Positions 9,578-43,135 of a stretch of DNA of 64,000 bases are shown piece after piece. This DNA is from Lujinxingiaceae bacterium. Its GTDB lineage: Bacteria; Myxococcota_A; Bradymonadia; Bradymonadales; Bradymonadaceae. Position 1 is the stretch's first letter; every line of letters starts with the position of its first letter. The position numbers were made by a program, and so were the translations under genes. Below the pieces are notes generated by a model. That model ran no database searches. It saw only the letters and a program-made list of their open reading frames with translations, and had not been told where the DNA came from. The stretch covers positions 1 through 64,000 of the forward strand of contig JACCWM010000099.1 of the NCBI GenBank assembly GCA_013697635.1. Reading direction: 5' to 3'.

Positions 9578-11383
9578 ATGAACTTGCTCACGACGCTGTC
9601 CAGGCGTGCGTTGACCGCCTGCGCCTTCGCGCTGCTCTCGTTTTTGATCTTGGCCGCGCCGGCCGTGGCCGCACCGCTCGAGGGCCGTCTCACCGACGGG
9701 CTCACCGGCACGCCGCTGGCATCGGCGCGCGTTCACGTGCTCGGCACCGAGCTCGAGATGCTCACCGATGCCAACGGAGCCTGGGCCTTCGATCTGCCGG
9801 CGGGCCACTACGAGCTCGCGATCGAAATCGAGATTGACGGCGAATTGCAAAGCTCGCGCCTGGTCAACCAGTACGTGCCCCAGGTGATCGCGGCGCGCGC
9901 CCACGTCTATACCTCGGCCTTTGTCGACATGGGCTATCCTGCCCTCGAGCATCCAACCGGCGTTCCCACGACCAGCGGGCGTCTGCCCGACGACGGCCCT
10001 GAGTCGCTCGATCTCGACGAGCTGCTGCCGCGCCAGCATCCTTCGCTCAATTACTACGAGATCCCGGCCAACCAGCCGCCCACGATCCGGGTTGGGCGCC
10101 GCCAGGACCACACCGGCGCCAAGGGCTGCACCGACTCCACCAATCCGATCATCGCCATCCACCAGATGGATCTCGACGAGTACGTCAAGGGCGTGCTTCC
10201 ACCCGAGATCGGCGTCTTTCGCAACATCAGCGGCGCGCGCGAGGTCTACAAGGCCTTCGCGATCGCCGCCAAGAGCTACGGCTTGTGGTTCATCCTGCGC
10301 TACGGCGAGGGTAATCGACGCACCGTCAGCGCCAAGCCGCCCCACAATTACACCTGGTTTCATATCGACGACACGGCCTGCAATCAGCGCTATGACGACC
10401 AGCGCATGGCGATTACCAACGAGTCGGCCGACGCCGTCGCCCGGCTGATCATGGTCAAGAAGGGGGCCACAACCACGATCGACAAATACGAGTACGCCGC
10501 AAGCTGCGGCAAGCACGGCTCACGGCCGGCCTACCAGACCACGCTGGTGGCCGACAAGCCGCCGACCAGTGCCTGCGCGGGTACCTGGTGCGGCCACAAC
10601 GCCTGCGCCGCCCACGAGGTCAATCCGGCCGTACCCAACGAAGGCCGTTGCCTGGTGCGCGGTATCTGTCAGTGGGGCTCGGCATCCTGGGGCGAGAACG
10701 CCAAGACCTACACCTGGCTGCTCGCCCACTACCAGCCCAACATCGTGCTTCGCGAGCTTGGCTCGACCGCTGGGGCAGGCAAGGTCGTGCTGACCGGCTA
10801 CGTCTATACCGATGCAGCCAACATCGCCTCCTCGGGCGTCGCTGACGTCAACGTCGCTCTCAGCGACGGGCAGCGCACCGCCACCAACGCGCAAGGCGTC
10901 TACTACTTCGATCAGGTTGCACTCGACCTTGGCACCGTCTCTTTGACCGCCTCCAAGACGGGATATCTCACGGCCCGACGCGACAAACAGCTCGAATCGG
11001 GCGCGACCAACTGGGGCAGCATCAAGATCGAGCTTGCCCCGGTCGATCCGGTCGGTCCGGTCGATCCCGCCGATCCCGCCGATCCCATCGACCCGGGAAC
11101 GCCGCAGGCCGACACCGGTGTTGCGATTGGCGATGCTGGCAACCTGGCCGATGTCGCCCACGGCCTCGACGACACAGGTGACGACGGTGTTGTCCCGATC
11201 ACGCCCGGCACGCACCCTCGCGACAACAGCGACCCCAACGCGCTGGGCCGCCTCGTCAGCCCCTCACATGGCATCGATGGTGGATGCGCAACTGGCGCAG
11301 CGGCCAGCAGCCCCAGGCTCACCCTGGTGCTCCCACTGCTCGCTTTCGCACTCTTTGGCTTCTCGCGCCGCCGCCGCCGCTGA
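9578..11383 (+). CDS. Secreted SpoIID/LytB-type protein with carboxypeptidase-like repeats and MYXO-CTERM-like tail
   Basis: 601 residues. A signal peptide (cut near AVAA/APLEG, residue 31-32) is followed by a carboxypeptidase regulatory-like beta domain (about 33-105, DGLTGTPLASARVHV). A SpoIID domain (about 185-400) follows: MDLDEYVKGVLPPEIG with the catalytic-type Glu, EVYKAFAIAAKSYGLW, and ICQWGSASWGENAKTYTWLL. SpoIID is a lytic transglycosylase that cuts denuded glycan strands. A second regulatory-like domain (about 405-480) leads to a Pro-Val-Asp repeat linker. The end is GGCATG, a hydrophobic helix and RRRRR, the layout of the MYXO-CTERM sorting signal. It is probably a cell-surface murein enzyme in an organism not expected to sporulate. 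Confidence 0.85.
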   Translation: MNLLTTLSRRALTACAFALLSFLILAAPAVAAPLEGRLTDGLTGTPLASARVHVLGTELEMLTDANGAWAFDLPAGHYELAIEIEIDGELQSSRLVNQYVPQVIAARAHVYTSAFVDMGYPALEHPTGVPTTSGRLPDDGPESLDLDELLPRQHPSLNYYEIPANQPPTIRVGRRQDHTGAKGCTDSTNPIIAIHQMDLDEYVKGVLPPEIGVFRNISGAREVYKAFAIAAKSYGLWFILRYGEGNRRTVSAKPPHNYTWFHIDDTACNQRYDDQRMAITNESADAVARLIMVKKGATTTIDKYEYAASCGKHGSRPAYQTTLVADKPPTSACAGTWCGHNACAAHEVNPAVPNEGRCLVRGICQWGSASWGENAKTYTWLLAHYQPNIVLRELGSTAGAGKVVLTGYVYTDAANIASSGVADVNVALSDGQRTATNAQGVYYFDQVALDLGTVSLTASKTGYLTARRDKQLESGATNWGSIKIELAPVDPVGPVDPADPADPIDPGTPQADTGVAIGDAGNLADVAHGLDDTGDDGVVPITPGTHPRDNSDPNALGRLVSPSHGIDGGCATGAAASSPRLTLVLPLLAFALFGFSRRRRR

Positions 11384-35382: not shown

Positions 35383-36567
35383 TCAGCGCGCGGCCAGCTC
35401 GGCGCGAATTCTACTTTCGAGCTCGCCGTAGGCCATGGCGCCGGCCACGCGCCGGCCGTTGAGAAAGAAGGTGGGCGTGCCACGAATCTCGAGCGTGGAG
35501 CCGGCGAGCACGTCGGCGCGCACAATGCGCGCGGCCAAATCGTCGTCGATGCACTGGGCCAGGGCATCGGCGTCCAGCCCGACCTCGCTGGCGTAGCGCA
35601 AGATATCGGCCTGGGCCAAAGCGGGCGCGCCGGCGAACATGCGATCGTGCAGCTCCCAGAATTTGCCCTGCTGATTGGCGCAGACGCCGGCGCGCGCAGC
35701 GCGCTGGCCGTCCTCCTGGCCAGGCAGCGGGAAGTGGCGAAACTCGATGCGCACCTGATCACCAAACGCCTCGGCGACCTGTTTCAACGTGTTGGCAAGC
35801 TCGCCGCAGTGAGGACAGGGAAAGTTCGAAAACTCCACGAGCACCACCGGCGCCGTGGCCGGGCCCTTGCCCGGCGCGTGAGCCGCCCGGTACGTAGACT
35901 CCGCAAAGACTTGTTCATGGGCCGCTTGTTTCTTGGCTTGCCTGGCCAGCTCGGCGCTCTCGATGCCCAGATCGGCCTTGACCAGATTGACCGCCAGCAG
36001 CAGAGCCGCGCAAAAGACCACGACGAAGGCCAGCGCCGAGCCCGATTTGAAAAGGCCTTTGAATTGGCGAAGCTGCTCGGCGACGACCTTGTGGGGCAAC
36101 TTGCCGTACCACATCGCGCCTGCAGCAAGGCCGATGGCGTTGAGCCCGTACATCACCGTGCAAAACGGGCACAGCGTCTTCAACACGCTCAGGCTAATGA
36201 CGAGCAAGAAGGCCGAATACAGACAGCTCACAAAAAACAGGGTCGTCGTGATGCCGGCCGGGCTCCACGGGACTTCGGGCGCTGCTTGTTTGTCCGAGAC
36301 GGCTTTGGTCGGGATCAGGGTCAAGCAGATGGCACCGGCGTAAAAGGCGATGCCCAACGAGGCGATCGGCACACCAAAAATCGCCGCATACGAGGAATGT
36401 GCAGCCGAACCACAGTTGACGAAACCATCGAGATTGCAAAGGCCGCCGCCGACCTGGTTGCCGACCTGGGCCTGGACATGGAGCACGCTCAGGTACCAGC
36501 CCGTCATGATCCCGCCTAGCGAGGCCAGTGCGACCGCAAATCGAGCCATTACCTTCGTTGTCTGCAT
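35383..36567 (-). CDS. VKOR-DsbA disulfide bond-forming fusion protein
   Basis: 394 residues. The N-terminal vitamin K epoxide reductase domain has membrane helices and the loop cysteines GLCNLDGFVNC (C44, C52) and the quinone-side pair CPFC (133-136). A further membrane helix (about 178-195) leads to a periplasmic thioredoxin-fold DsbA-like domain with CPHC (251-254) and the cis-proline GTPTFFLN (about 363). Such fusions both introduce disulfides and re-oxidise themselves with quinone, replacing DsbA and DsbB. The start at 36567 has AGGAAG upstream. It is divergent from a large cluster of cysteine-rich lipoproteins, which are likely substrates. Confidence 0.92.
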   Translation of the reverse strand: MQTTKVMARFAVALASLGGIMTGWYLSVLHVQAQVGNQVGGGLCNLDGFVNCGSAAHSSYAAIFGVPIASLGIAFYAGAICLTLIPTKAVSDKQAAPEVPWSPAGITTTLFFVSCLYSAFLLVISLSVLKTLCPFCTVMYGLNAIGLAAGAMWYGKLPHKVVAEQLRQFKGLFKSGSALAFVVVFCAALLLAVNLVKADLGIESAELARQAKKQAAHEQVFAESTYRAAHAPGKGPATAPVVLVEFSNFPCPHCGELANTLKQVAEAFGDQVRIEFRHFPLPGQEDGQRAARAGVCANQQGKFWELHDRMFAGAPALAQADILRYASEVGLDADALAQCIDDDLAARIVRADVLAGSTLEIRGTPTFFLNGRRVAGAMAYGELESRIRAELAAR

Positions 36568-36833
36568 GCTTTCTTCCTGAAATAAATCGATGGGGACGCT
36601 TTCCAATCCCTACTAACCCACCACCGGCTCAAAGCATTTCGCCGCGGCATCGACAAGTACGGCAGCCATAGCATGACGTGTTTGCCAGCGTCCATCGCCC
36701 GGGGCCCCGCCGCCTATTTCCGCGCTGCCCCCTGGTGGCGCGTCGAATTGCGTGCAACGTTGCAGTCGCGCCGCGTGCATGGGATTAATAGTGGAAGCAC
36801 TTTGTGTGACTTGCCGCTTTTTAGGATGAAGAG

Positions 36834-39800
36834 ATGCGCTCGATTTGCTTGAAGAACACCGTTTTGATTTTGGGGTTTGCGCTGCTTGCGGCCTGCTCCT
36901 CGGATGGCTGTGGCTGTGATGGATTCGAGCAGCGTCCGTTTCCGGCAAGCTCCTATGATCAGACCATTGCAAGCGGTGGCCAGGCGCGCGTGACCAAGGC
37001 CGGCTTGAGCTTTATCGAGGCACAGGTTCCCTACTTGCTTGATCAGTTTTTGCCCGGCGGATTGAGCTTTTGCATTCCGCGGGACACGTCGGGCAATCCG
37101 TCGATCTGTGTGGCCGATACGTGCACGGGCGGCCAGGAGGGTTGTCAGGTGGATTTGACCTTCGACGGGGCGACGCTGACGCCGGTGCCCTCGCGCCAGC
37201 TTCGCGCGAACATCACGATCGGCGGCGTCGACGAGAGTTTGAGCTTCGACTATCGGGTGCTCGGGGTGACGATTCGCTGCGAGGTCAAGCTGCATAAGGC
37301 CGGCCAGGCCGATACGGTCGCCGCCCGGGTTTCGGCACAGATTCCGGTCGATCTGTCGGTCGACGCGACCAGCCCGCTGCGCGAGCTCCAGATGTCGATC
37401 GGTGACATCGTGCTCGATCTCGATGACGTCGACTTCAAGATCCGGGGCCGCCAGAACCTGGGCGATACGGTGGCCTGTGGTGGGGCGAGCCTTGTGCGCG
37501 GCTTGTTTCGCGGCTACATCGAGACCGAGATCGACAAAGTACTCAACGAGACGGCTCAGGGCTTTGCCGACGCCTATTTGTGCCGTGCTTGTGGCAGCGG
37601 TCAGCCGCCCTGCTCGAGCGGCTCAACTTGTCGCGACGGCTACTGCATGGTCGGCTCGAGCGATGCCTGCGTGCCAGCGCCGCTTGGCATCGAGGGCAAT
37701 CTCAACCTGGGCTCGCTGCTTGGAGATTTCTCGCTCTCACCCAATGCGAGCGTGGCGATGCTGGCCAAGGCCGGCGACCATGCCACGGTCGACACGGGCG
37801 TCAGCGTTGGTCTGCGCTCGGGTTTTGCGCCTTTGCAGCAGCCTCGCTGCGTGCCGCTCGAGGCCCACCCGCGCCCGCGCGCGGTGGCCGTGCCGCGCTC
37901 AGCGACGATCAACGCCGACACCAAGCCCAACTCGACGAACACCTTCATGTTGGGCATCGGGCTGCACAAGTCGATCATCGAGCACATGCTGTGGTCGACC
38001 TGGGCCAGTGGCGCCGTTTGTCTGGAGATCTCTTCGGCCGACGTTGAGCTGTTGTCGACGGCCACCTTCGGGGCGATCTTGCCAAGCATCCGAGAGCTGG
38101 CCGGCGGCACGCCGCGCGACGCGTTCATTCACATGGTGCCCCAAAAACCGCCGACGGTAACCCTTGGCGCCAACACGATCGCAGCCTCGGGCAACACCTA
38201 CACGATCGTCGAGCCGTTGCTGACCATCGATTGGAGCGATCTGGACATCCACGTCTTTGGCTTCGTCCAAGACCGCTTCACGCGCTTGTTCACGCTGCGC
38301 GTTGACATTTTGCTGCCGATCGCCGTGGCCCCAGACGGCATGGGCGGCATCAGCCCGGTGATGGACGATCTGGACAAGGCGATACGCAACGTGCGCCCGC
38401 TTCGAAGCGAGTTGATCGTCGAAGATCCCCAGCGCTTGATTCAACTCTTGCCCGTCGTGCTCGGCGTGGCCCTGCCGAGCATCGCAGCTTTGGTGACCCA
38501 GAGCGTGCAGCTTCCCGAGTTTTTGGGCTTTCGCCTGGTGCTCGAGCAGTCCGACATCACCAGCGTCGACAACGCGAGTTTTATTGCGCTCTTTGCCAAC
38601 TTTGCGCGTGGCACCTCCCCGCTGCAGGCCGCGTTGCAGCCGATCGTTTTGGCCACACGCGTCGATGCCGCGCGCGTGCTCGAGTCGGGCATGCCGCGCC
38701 CGATGGTCGAGCTCGACGTGCTCGCGCTCGAGCGCGGATGGCAAAGCGCGCCCGAGCTCAGCGTCGAGTACAGCTTTCGTGTCGACGAGGGACTATGGAG
38801 CCTCTACCAGCGCACCTCGACGCTTGCCATTGAGCATCCCGTGCTCGCCCTACAAGGTGAACACCGCATCGAGGTGCGCGCACGCTATGTCGGCGATCTC
38901 CACTCGACGAGCGCAATCGTCTCCGAGACGCCCATTGTCATCGACTATCAAGCGCCCTCACTGTCACTGGAGCGAGACGGCGCGCTGGTGCGCTTTGTCG
39001 GAGAGGACGTCGTCGATCATGCGCTCGAATACCGCTATCGACTCGTCGGCACCGCGCAGGCCGAGGCGGCCTGGTCGAGCTGGACTCGCCAGGATTTCGT
39101 GGAAGCACGCGCGCTCGAGCAAAGCGCCACGCTCGAGGTCGAGGTGCGCGATCGGGCAGGCTATATCAGCGCGGCAAGCCTTCGCATCGTGCCGGCAAAA
39201 TCGACACGGCCTGGCGCCACCGACGAGCCTCGCGCTGCAGCGGGGTGCCAAAACGTCGGCGCCACTCCCTCGGGCAACGCCTTGATGTTCGGTGTTCTGC
39301 TCGCTGGCCTTTGGGCCCTGCGCCGGCGCCGCCTGGCTGCAAGCGCTTTGCTGATCGCGCTCGCTGCCGGCGGCTGCGATTGTGGCGGCGAGCTGGCCGT
39401 CACCAGCCCGCCTCATCTGCAGTGCATCTACGACCTGGAGTGCGCCGAGCTTTGCGCCTTTGGCCAGACCGGCTACTGCGAACACGGGCGCTGCCAGTGC
39501 GCAAGCCACTGCCCGCAGGGTTGCGGCGAGGGCGAATTTTGCTGTTTTTCAACCAACGCGTGTGAGGCCATTGGCGATCTGTGTGGCAATGAGCCCTGCC
39601 CGCCAGGCTTTGAGTTTCGCGCGGCCACGGTCACGCCCAACCGCGAGACGTGCGCCATCGAGAGCTTTTCGTGCGAGTGCGGGCCGCTGCCTCCGATCCC
39701 TATCGGTATCCATGGCCCCTTTGCCGACATCGCCTCCAACGGCACCACGCTTGCCGTCAGCGTCTACAACCGCACCTACCGCGACCTGATGGTCGCCACG

Positions 39801-40853
39801 GTCGAGGACAGCGGCCAGCTTCAATGGTATTTCGTCGACGGCGCGCCCGACGATGGCGAGGTCGTCGCTGATCCGGGCGGGCTGCGCGGCGGAGTCATTG
39901 AGCGTGGGCCCAATGTCGGCACGCACACCGCGATCGCGGTCGATGCTCTGGGCGGCCTGCACGTGCTCTATCGCGATGAGGACGCCAAGGCGCTCAAATA
40001 CGCCCGTGGAGTGCTGCAAGGCGGCGGCGTGTACGCCTTTGAGACGACCACGCTCGACGCGAGCACCAACGCCGGCTTTTGGAGCGATCTGGCCGTGATC
40101 GACCAGACCGTGCACGGCGTCTACGGGGTGCGCGAGGGTAGCGCGACCGAGTGGTCCTCTCAGCTTCGCCACATCAGCTTCTCGACCACCGCGCCGCTCG
40201 CCCAAATCGTGGTGGTGCCGGTCGTGATCGCAAGCTCCGAGAGCTGCGCGCCGGCTTGCACCGACCGCGGTTATCCGGGCGCGACGGGTTTGTACAACAC
40301 CCTTCAAAAGACAAGCGACGGCCTGCTGGTCGTGTTCTACGATCACAGCAAGGGCCGAATCGGGCGCGCCCGCTTTGCCAGCGGTCAGTGGGAGCAGCCG
40401 ACGATGCTAGCCGTCGGCACCGGGCCTTATGCTGCGGGTGCGATCGATGCCAGCGGCTTGTTGCACCTTGCCTTTATGAACCGCACTGGCCTTCGCCACT
40501 TGCAGACCGGAGTCGGCAGCCCACGCGCGGCGGCCATCCACGAAGGCGTTCGCCAAGCCGCCCATGGTTACTATGCCGGTTTGATCGGCGAGAACGTCAG
40601 CCTTCAGATCGCGGCGGACGGGCGCGTCGTGGTCTCATTTCACGACGCCTTCGATCACGCGCTCTATGTAGGCGTCTTGGAGGACGAGGCTTGGAGCGTA
40701 CAAAAGCTCGCGCCCCAGGCCAAGCAGCCCGGCTCACACGGTTTTTACAGCGGGCTGACCGTGCATGGCTCAGGCCTTGCGATCGTCGAGTTTGTGATCG
40801 ACAACCAGGCCAGCCCACCACAGGCGCGCGCCGTAGTCCATCGGCTGCCCTAG
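36834..40853 (+). CDS. Giant secreted lipoprotein: two surface proteins fused with an internal MYXO-CTERM-like signal
   Basis: 1339 residues. Part 1: a lipoprotein signal (VLILGFALLAAC, C21), then a long beta-rich domain with lipid-binding-like segments, one Cys-rich insert (CRACGSGQPPC... about 255-290), and beta-sandwich modules (about 640-790). Residues 803-833 read GCQNVGATPSGNALMFG, a hydrophobic helix, then RRRR: the MYXO-CTERM layout (C805). Part 2 follows at once: LAASALLIALAAGGC (C848), a lipoprotein-signal-like sequence, then a Cys-rich EGF/antistasin-like region (about 848-950) and repeated beta blades resembling a propeller (about 970-1339). No stop codon separates them. An internal ATG (39285) could restart translation. 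Function is unknown; it is probably displayed on the cell surface. Confidence 0.8.
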   Translation: MRSICLKNTVLILGFALLAACSSDGCGCDGFEQRPFPASSYDQTIASGGQARVTKAGLSFIEAQVPYLLDQFLPGGLSFCIPRDTSGNPSICVADTCTGGQEGCQVDLTFDGATLTPVPSRQLRANITIGGVDESLSFDYRVLGVTIRCEVKLHKAGQADTVAARVSAQIPVDLSVDATSPLRELQMSIGDIVLDLDDVDFKIRGRQNLGDTVACGGASLVRGLFRGYIETEIDKVLNETAQGFADAYLCRACGSGQPPCSSGSTCRDGYCMVGSSDACVPAPLGIEGNLNLGSLLGDFSLSPNASVAMLAKAGDHATVDTGVSVGLRSGFAPLQQPRCVPLEAHPRPRAVAVPRSATINADTKPNSTNTFMLGIGLHKSIIEHMLWSTWASGAVCLEISSADVELLSTATFGAILPSIRELAGGTPRDAFIHMVPQKPPTVTLGANTIAASGNTYTIVEPLLTIDWSDLDIHVFGFVQDRFTRLFTLRVDILLPIAVAPDGMGGISPVMDDLDKAIRNVRPLRSELIVEDPQRLIQLLPVVLGVALPSIAALVTQSVQLPEFLGFRLVLEQSDITSVDNASFIALFANFARGTSPLQAALQPIVLATRVDAARVLESGMPRPMVELDVLALERGWQSAPELSVEYSFRVDEGLWSLYQRTSTLAIEHPVLALQGEHRIEVRARYVGDLHSTSAIVSETPIVIDYQAPSLSLERDGALVRFVGEDVVDHALEYRYRLVGTAQAEAAWSSWTRQDFVEARALEQSATLEVEVRDRAGYISAASLRIVPAKSTRPGATDEPRAAAGCQNVGATPSGNALMFGVLLAGLWALRRRRLAASALLIALAAGGCDCGGELAVTSPPHLQCIYDLECAELCAFGQTGYCEHGRCQCASHCPQGCGEGEFCCFSTNACEAIGDLCGNEPCPPGFEFRAATVTPNRETCAIESFSCECGPLPPIPIGIHGPFADIASNGTTLAVSVYNRTYRDLMVATVEDSGQLQWYFVDGAPDDGEVVADPGGLRGGVIERGPNVGTHTAIAVDALGGLHVLYRDEDAKALKYARGVLQGGGVYAFETTTLDASTNAGFWSDLAVIDQTVHGVYGVREGSATEWSSQLRHISFSTTAPLAQIVVVPVVIASSESCAPACTDRGYPGATGLYNTLQKTSDGLLVVFYDHSKGRIGRARFASGQWEQPTMLAVGTGPYAAGAIDASGLLHLAFMNRTGLRHLQTGVGSPRAAAIHEGVRQAAHGYYAGLIGENVSLQIAADGRVVVSFHDAFDHALYVGVLEDEAWSVQKLAPQAKQPGSHGFYSGLTVHGSGLAIVEFVIDNQASPPQARAVVHRLP

Positions 40854-40900: not shown

Positions 40901-40951
40901 GGTCAGCGTGCCATCACTGCAGATTTTTTAATGATGAATAAGGATTGTTGC

Positions 40952-43135
40952 ATGTTTGAGCAAGCGAGGTCGCCGCGTCGACCACTGTGGATCGCACTGA
41001 TGGCCATGAGCGTTGTGATGCTGGCAGCGTGTAGTGACGACGCCTCATCGACCAAGGGCTGCCCGGCCGGTCAGATAACCAACCCGATCTCGGGAGGCTG
41101 TGAGCCCGTCGATTGTCCCGCTGGCCACATTTTCAATCCGATCAAGGGCGCCTGCGTGATCGGCAGTGGCCCCGATGCCGGTCATCTCGACACCGATCCC
41201 TCGGGCAGCGACGCGGTGACGCAAAACAACGGCCTTGGCGACAGTGGGCAACAGCCGGGCGATACCAACACCTCCAACAATACCAACCCCAACAACGCCA
41301 ATAATCACTGCACGGGCCTGGGTTGCGATGACGACGTCATCGTGGTACCCGATACCGGCCCCGGCACCCCCTATCGGCCTCAAGATCCGGCGCAGGCGCA
41401 GTACCATAGCTGTACCAGCGCCGATACGCGCAACCTGGTGGCACCGAAGTTTCTCTCGCACACGGCGGGCAATTACCTGCTGACCACCGAGCGCAGCGTC
41501 AACGCCTCGCTCGTCACGCCGACGGCGGGCCTGCTCAACGCTCACGTCTTCGAGGATACCCAAAACAAGTTCACCGGCTTTGTCGTCTCGCTTGCGCCCC
41601 AGGCCAACCAGACGACACCGGCGATGCTCTCGCAGGCGCTCTTGACGAGCATTCAGAGCATCACGGGCATGAATACGGCCAGCCTGCGCCACGCCGGGCG
41701 CCAGACGCTCACCCATGATCAGATGTCGGCCGTCACGCGCGCCTCGATCCTCTTGCCCAACGGCACCGCTCCCCACGTGGCGCGCGACGCTATCCTGGCT
41801 CGCCAGATCGGCTTGACCGCACAGAATCTGGGCCACACGCTGACGGCAACCTTCTCGGCCAACGCCAACGCTCCCAGCGTGCTCGTCTACCAGATTGTGC
41901 GCCGCTCCAACCAGCAGTACGTGCTGATCGCAGCGCTTGCCACGCTGGCCGACTACGAAAACGACGCGCTCACCACGGGCACGCGCATCGACGATCTGGT
42001 CAGTGGTACGGCCCTGGCCTACGCCGACGAGTCGATGACCGATCAGTGCGTCTCCTATACGATTCGCGACACCAACGAGGTCGACATCATCATCTCTCTC
42101 GATGCCTCCGGCTCGATGAGTGGCGTGCAAAACGCTCTGGCCAACTTCGCCCAGGAGTTCACCCAACTGCTCGATGCAACGGGCGCTGACTGGCGCGTGG
42201 GCATCACCGGCGTCGACTGCGACAACATCCAAAACGACGCCGGTCTGAGCCAGGAGTACCGAAACCTCTGGTCGACCGCGAGCAGCGGTGCGGGTGGCAT
42301 CTTTGGCATCGAGATCTGCAAGACGCCTTTTGGCATCGGCGGCAGCGGCAACAACGGCAAGCTTATCGGTGGCGGATTCACCCGCGATTTCCAGCAGATC
42401 GACAGCCGCATGCGCCAGGTCAGCACGACCGGCTCGGAGTACACGTTGACCATGGGTGTTGCCGCCATCGATCGCAGCTTGCCTCGCGCGGAGAACTCCG
42501 CGAGCAAGATCCGCCCCAACGCCGCAGTCATTCTCGTGGTCGTCACCGACGAAAATGAGGAGCTCTTCAAGCAGAAGTTCACCTTCATCGGCGGAACGAA
42601 TCAAACCCTGACCGGCGCCCAGCGCACCGAGATGGAGGCCTTCGCCCGGCCCTGGATCGAGTATCTTCGCCGTCCCGATGTCGACGCCCCGGTCTTCGGC
42701 CTGTACTGGCTGCCCGGCCAGCCCTGCGCTGGCGCCACAGACGTCGCCCACGACATCGACCACTTCGTCACCCAGACCGGTGGCGCGGGCGGCTCGGTCT
42801 GCCAGGGCGACGTCACGACGACCTTTCGCGACATCGCCGACGCCACGCGCGATTTGACCTCGGGCCTTCGCCTGATCGGCGCTCCGGTGGCCACGACCAT
42901 CCGCGTGGCCAAAGAAGGCCCCAACAATGTGGACTCCGTGCTCAACCGCAGCCGCATCGACGGCTTCGACTTCGATGCGACCAACAACAGCGTGCTCTTC
43001 GAGGGCCCGAGCGCTCCCCAGGTCGACGAGCGCGTGGTCGTGCCTTATATGCGCTGGAATCGCTCGGTGCAGCCGTGTGAGACGACCTCGCAGTGCACGG
43101 GCACACGCAAGTGCATGAACGGCGTCTGCCGCTGA
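40952..43135 (+). CDS. VWA-domain lipoprotein with Cys-rich ends
   Basis: 727 residues. The lipoprotein signal is SVVMLAAC after WIALMAM, giving a lipidated Cys at about residue 27. Two short Cys-rich units with the repeated phrase CPAGxIxNPI (about 36-65) are followed by an Asn-rich linker (about 100-118). A von Willebrand factor A domain comes at about 376-650 with the metal site DASGSMSG (D384). A C-terminal Cys-rich module CETTSQCTGTRKCMNGVC ends the protein. The start ATG at 40952 has AAGGA upstream and a complete signal peptide; an earlier ATG at 40931 is possible. It is likely a surface adhesion protein. It has its own promoter candidate and precedes panB by about 100 bases. Confidence 0.85.
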   Translation: MFEQARSPRRPLWIALMAMSVVMLAACSDDASSTKGCPAGQITNPISGGCEPVDCPAGHIFNPIKGACVIGSGPDAGHLDTDPSGSDAVTQNNGLGDSGQQPGDTNTSNNTNPNNANNHCTGLGCDDDVIVVPDTGPGTPYRPQDPAQAQYHSCTSADTRNLVAPKFLSHTAGNYLLTTERSVNASLVTPTAGLLNAHVFEDTQNKFTGFVVSLAPQANQTTPAMLSQALLTSIQSITGMNTASLRHAGRQTLTHDQMSAVTRASILLPNGTAPHVARDAILARQIGLTAQNLGHTLTATFSANANAPSVLVYQIVRRSNQQYVLIAALATLADYENDALTTGTRIDDLVSGTALAYADESMTDQCVSYTIRDTNEVDIIISLDASGSMSGVQNALANFAQEFTQLLDATGADWRVGITGVDCDNIQNDAGLSQEYRNLWSTASSGAGGIFGIEICKTPFGIGGSGNNGKLIGGGFTRDFQQIDSRMRQVSTTGSEYTLTMGVAAIDRSLPRAENSASKIRPNAAVILVVVTDENEELFKQKFTFIGGTNQTLTGAQRTEMEAFARPWIEYLRRPDVDAPVFGLYWLPGQPCAGATDVAHDIDHFVTQTGGAGGSVCQGDVTTTFRDIADATRDLTSGLRLIGAPVATTIRVAKEGPNNVDSVLNRSRIDGFDFDATNNSVLFEGPSAPQVDERVVVPYMRWNRSVQPCETTSQCTGTRKCMNGVCR

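Follow-up and report, generated by a model that had tools for sequence, protein, structure and literature searches.

A predicted double surface lipoprotein of Myxococcota with an internal MYXO-CTERM and lipoprotein signal

Introduction

MYXO-CTERM signals are named for their position at the end of the protein. In a Myxococcota genome of family Bradymonadaceae (Lujinxingiaceae bacterium, GCA_013697635.1), such a signal lies in the middle of a long open reading frame and is followed, without a stop, by what resembles a lipoprotein signal. The locus is found in a window of 64,000 nucleotides (contig JACCWM010000099.1, positions 1 to 64,000), which is the whole stretch of DNA analyzed. It raises the question of whether one gene makes two separately anchored surface proteins as a single chain, as suggested in an earlier note based on the sequence alone, or whether the junction has another origin, such as sequence error, or another function.

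Cellular polyproteins are rare in bacteria. MYXO-CTERM (TIGR03901) proteins of Myxococcus xanthus are cleaved by the myxosortase MrtX, which requires the Cys of the signal and is also active in E. coli (Guo, Haft and Wall, 2025, PMC11980579). The same paper mentions internal MYXO-CTERM signals as rare and names one, MXAN_5598, for which processing of the N-terminal part was proposed.

Layout of the open reading frame

The 1339-aa ORF is intact and carries the following features:

36834..40853 (+), whole predicted polyprotein ORF, 1339 aa
36834..36893 (+), N-terminal lipoprotein signal peptide (MRSICLKNTVLILGFALLAA), predicted to be cleaved before C21
36894..39248 (+), first predicted mature protein, C21-C805, with predicted BPI-like double TULIP fold plus FN3/Ig-like domains
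39243..39332 (+), internal MYXO-CTERM signal: GC (C805 at 39246-39248), transmembrane helix and RRRR (39321-39332)
39285..39287 (+), in-frame ATG proposed as a separate start, judged not functional
39333..39374 (+), hydrophobic region and lipobox of the internal lipoprotein signal (LAASALLIALAAGG)
39375..39377 (+), C848, predicted lipidated first residue of the second mature protein
39375..40850 (+), second predicted mature protein, C848 to end, with a Cys-rich segment plus predicted beta-propeller

The layout described in the earlier note, an internal MYXO-CTERM segment followed by a lipoprotein signal with no stop, is thus confirmed. The note did not mention that the N-terminus is also a lipoprotein signal (FALLAAC21), so that the ORF carries three processing signals: lipobox, MYXO-CTERM, and lipobox. 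An N-terminal lipobox is found in nearly all homologs, and PROSITE pattern PS00013 was matched in 41 of 48 scored.

The excised 32-aa peptide passes the curated cutoffs of TIGR03901 (23.2 bits against 20, E 6.6e-5) and TIGR03382 (17.9 against 15.85). Within the whole 1339-aa protein neither model is reported, and in the six-frame genome search the site scores 17.0 bits, below the TIGR03901 cutoff. It is therefore a somewhat weak instance, as other sites in this genome are. The internal lipobox, preceded by RRRR and a hydrophobic peak, satisfies PS00013.

Of 34 MYXO-CTERM sites scoring at least 17 bits in this genome, 30 end within 37 aa of a stop (29 within 17). The other four have 301 or more residues to follow (506 in the window gene), and all four are immediately followed by a signal peptide, three of these being lipoboxes and one resembling a signal peptidase I site. 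The four are the window gene, its 47% identical paralog on contig 40, a gene on contig 153, and a gene on contig 20. A profile built from the segments made up of the two signals, each hereafter called a hairpin, gives only three full-length hits in the genome; the other top hits match only its MYXO-CTERM half or only its lipobox half. The hairpin is thus two common signals placed back to back. An ordinary terminal MYXO-CTERM protein is also encoded in the window (11279-11380, +; 25.4 bits, frame of 611 aa).

Conservation of the junction

Relatives of the protein were found in 57 of 96 searched genomes. The fused layout is open in 52 homologous frames from 45 Myxococcota genomes, including this one. 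Across 45 aligned hairpins the only invariant columns are the two cysteines. The spacing between them ranges from 36 to 87 residues, and the loop between the helices has net charge +3 or more in all 52, as expected of two independent signals rather than a packed helix pair. The residue before the second Cys is always G, A or S, and PS00013 is matched at 46 of 52 junctions, against 31 of 2087 other Cys in the same proteins; the six exceptions miss the strict pattern mostly through a proline. Asp is strongly favored after the lipobox Cys (16 of 52 at +2, 29 of 52 at +3). In close pairs the hairpin has dN/dS of 0.14-0.37, so it is translated and under constraint.

Split and stand-alone relatives

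In two genomes the halves are separate adjacent genes. In the first (G051), the first gene ends GLRRRRRGEDQ followed by TGA, and the second half is a separate ORF in another frame, starting with MSKTRLALLAALAALAFGC and continuing DDN; its sister of the same genus (G029) is fused. In the second (G063), the junction is TGA/ATG, and the second protein starts with MNARTCLVGALALTLAGVANPGC and continues SCG. The tree requires two separate changes of state for these. A third genome (G047) looked split, but its contig ends inside the junction. Further out, about nine Myxococcota MAG loci (L193, L196, L197, L198, L200, L203, L204, L205, L206) encode only the first half, ending at MYXO-CTERM with a stop, and no second half was found in the flanks retrieved. 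Each signal therefore sits at a true protein end in this same family.

The genome encodes a myxosortase of the MrtP type (NF040674, 426 bits against 250) and two LspA (signal peptidase II; two Peptidase_A8 matches over the cutoff). Next to the window gene, at 35383-36606 (-), lies a gene that looks from sequence like a VKOR domain fused to a DsbA-like thioredoxin domain, a plausible disulfide supplier for Cys-rich surface proteins. The next gene downstream (about 40930-43135, +) is a lipoprotein (SVVMLAAC) with a DxSxS von Willebrand A-like motif (DIIISLDASGSMSG). The contig 40 paralog, in contrast to the window copy, sits directly after a tRNA nucleotidyltransferase/poly(A) polymerase-like gene and before further lipoproteins, in an operon-like cluster (L186) that is conserved (L189, genome G007). 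A pcnB-linked neighboring lipoprotein of this cluster (L186:2835-4367) gave only a weak profile match to the first half (19% probability).

Predicted folds of the two halves

No Pfam or NCBIfam model names either half. AlphaFold2 on family alignments gave confident models for both. The first half (pLDDT 88.5) matches BPI best (human BPI, 1ewf; Foldseek E 6e-17, TMt 0.63) and has extra FN3/Ig-like domains; a sequence profile also points to BPI, weakly (E 0.024). BPI and other TULIP lipid-binding proteins, and bacterial DUF4403 (Levine, 2019, PMC6791001), are the closest known proteins for this half, but no Pfam TULIP or DUF4403 model matches reliably: the window protein has no match, and among 44 members only weak LBP_BPI_CETP matches were obtained, the best with E 0.007 and 0.015. 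The second half (pLDDT 91.2) is a Cys-rich segment plus a predicted beta-propeller closest to Photorhabdus PHL/PLL lectins (E 1.5e-10, TMt 0.55-0.66, 11-16% identity) and sialidases. A paired lipid-binding and possibly glycan-binding surface module is a reasonable but untested function.

Proposed processing

The best-supported reading, held with high confidence although no proteomic or biochemical evidence of cleavage exists for this family, is that of a polyprotein giving two separately anchored proteins, as the earlier note proposed. In this scheme, Sec exports the first half behind its own lipoprotein signal, and the MYXO-CTERM helix stops transfer and leaves RRRR in the cytoplasm. The same arginines would serve as the positive n-region of the second signal, whose hydrophobic segment restarts export, so both halves end up in the periplasm. 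Myxosortase (MrtP here) would then cut just after C805, which is probably lipidated first, while Lgt would lipidate C848 and LspA cut just before it, the roughly 42-residue hairpin between the cysteines being discarded. The inferred products are two lipid-anchored envelope proteins made 1:1 from one translation: a BPI-like lipid-binding protein with lipid at both ends and a Cys-rich beta-propeller lipoprotein. The two cuts are inferred from relatives and from established enzymology; lipidation, export to the outer surface, and function are also inferred, and the published cleavage assays considered here were on TraA and MXAN_4924, with MrtX rather than MrtP (PMC11980579).

ALTERNATIVES

Sequencing or assembly error can be excluded. 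The window comes from a genome in 213 contigs, but the same fusion is present in the 47% identical paralog and in 45 genomes in all, including single-contig assemblies (G005, G007, G010). The earlier note had stated that a stop between the halves in relatives would point to sequence error here; the comparison came out the other way, since most relatives are fused and the few split ones put the stop exactly where MYXO-CTERM ends. The separate start at ATG 39285, also suggested in the note, is not supported, and internal initiation or re-initiation is very unlikely. This copy does have an in-frame ATG 30 codons before C848, and the halves are separate ORFs with a TGA/ATG junction in G063. However, the ATG has no Shine-Dalgarno sequence, is not conserved and is lacking in the paralog, seven fused homologs have no in-frame ATG/GTG/TTG anywhere in the hairpin, and no promoter or terminator was found at the junction on the coding strand.

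It is also unlikely, although topologically allowed by two hydrophobic peaks with a positive loop and although no cleavage data exist, that the hairpin remains uncut as a permanent two-pass inner-membrane anchor holding both domains in the periplasm as one protein. Such an anchor needs neither Cys, yet both are the only invariant positions; relatives end or begin exactly at these signals, the hairpin is otherwise poorly conserved and variable in length, and a dedicated myxosortase is present. That only one of the two cuts happens, with LspA releasing the second lipoprotein while the first half keeps its helices, or the reverse, is likewise improbable. Nothing shows that both enzymes act on internal sites, and mrtX mutants still surface-display some uncut TraA (PMC11980579), but both Cys are equally invariant and both signals are seen at true ends in relatives.

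Comparison with known systems

The window protein shares with other MYXO-CTERM proteins the Cys signature, the transmembrane helix, the Arg cluster, an N-terminal signal and a myxosortase in the genome, and differs in that the signal is internal and followed by a second export signal and a second protein. MXAN_5598 also has MYXO-CTERM in mid-ORF, but it joins an adhesin to an OM barrel/OmpA part and was presented as one atypical case (PMC11980579). Here the second half is a predicted lipoprotein, the family is a different one and widespread, and split and stand-alone relatives exist. An internal archaeosortase signal is processed by ArtA in Haloferax volcanii (Abdul Halim, 2017, PMC5350275, cited in PMC11980579), a case of a tripartite sorting signal acting away from the C-terminus, in a different enzyme class and domain of life. 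No precedent for a bacterial polyprotein cut by SPII was found in a literature search that left out most subscription journals.

The arrangement is old and conserved across a class and beyond. Annotation pipelines give such genes one name and one localization when they probably make two or three surface proteins, so surface-protein counts in these bacteria are affected.

Occurrence in other protein families

It is probable, though less certain than the reading of the window gene, that Myxococcota use the joined MYXO-CTERM and signal-peptide hairpin as a general, portable polyprotein module, a two-enzyme, membrane-embedded counterpart of polyprotein processing in which the arginine tail of one sorting signal doubles as the start of the next export signal. 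This would let unrelated gene pairs, and in one case three proteins in a row, be made and anchored in fixed proportion from one start codon.

The contig 153 gene (within C153:24500-32500, hairpin at C153:28120-28275) is an M23 peptidase/FG-GAP protein with MYXO-CTERM, then a lipobox and a 284-aa second protein. Neither half is detectably related to the window protein, and both halves share one frame in at least eight other genomes. In the contig 20 gene (within C20:56500-62500), MYXO-CTERM at C20:59525-59629 is followed by a signal peptidase I-like signal (WSSTAFT, then QNEV) and about 300 residues that look like an outer-membrane barrel, which recalls MXAN_5598; a second MYXO-CTERM gene lies right after it.

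Scanning 92 genomes with the hairpin profile found further fusions in other families. In four loci (L185 in genome G031, L174 in G029, L182 in G051, and L180 in G010) the internal MYXO-CTERM is followed by signal peptidase I-type sites rather than lipoboxes, joining for example an amidase_3 to a PD40 propeller (L185) and MopE repeats to an OmpA protein (L174). A 3056-aa ORF (L166, G010:C1:4102000-4120000) has two MYXO-CTERM and lipobox hairpins (aa 673 and 1321), hence three predicted products (FG-GAP/cadherin, FG-GAP/cadherin, and 1688 aa). In genome G027, two loci (L168 and L184) contain ORFs with one internal hairpin and a second, terminal MYXO-CTERM, so the downstream product is predicted to be anchored at both ends.
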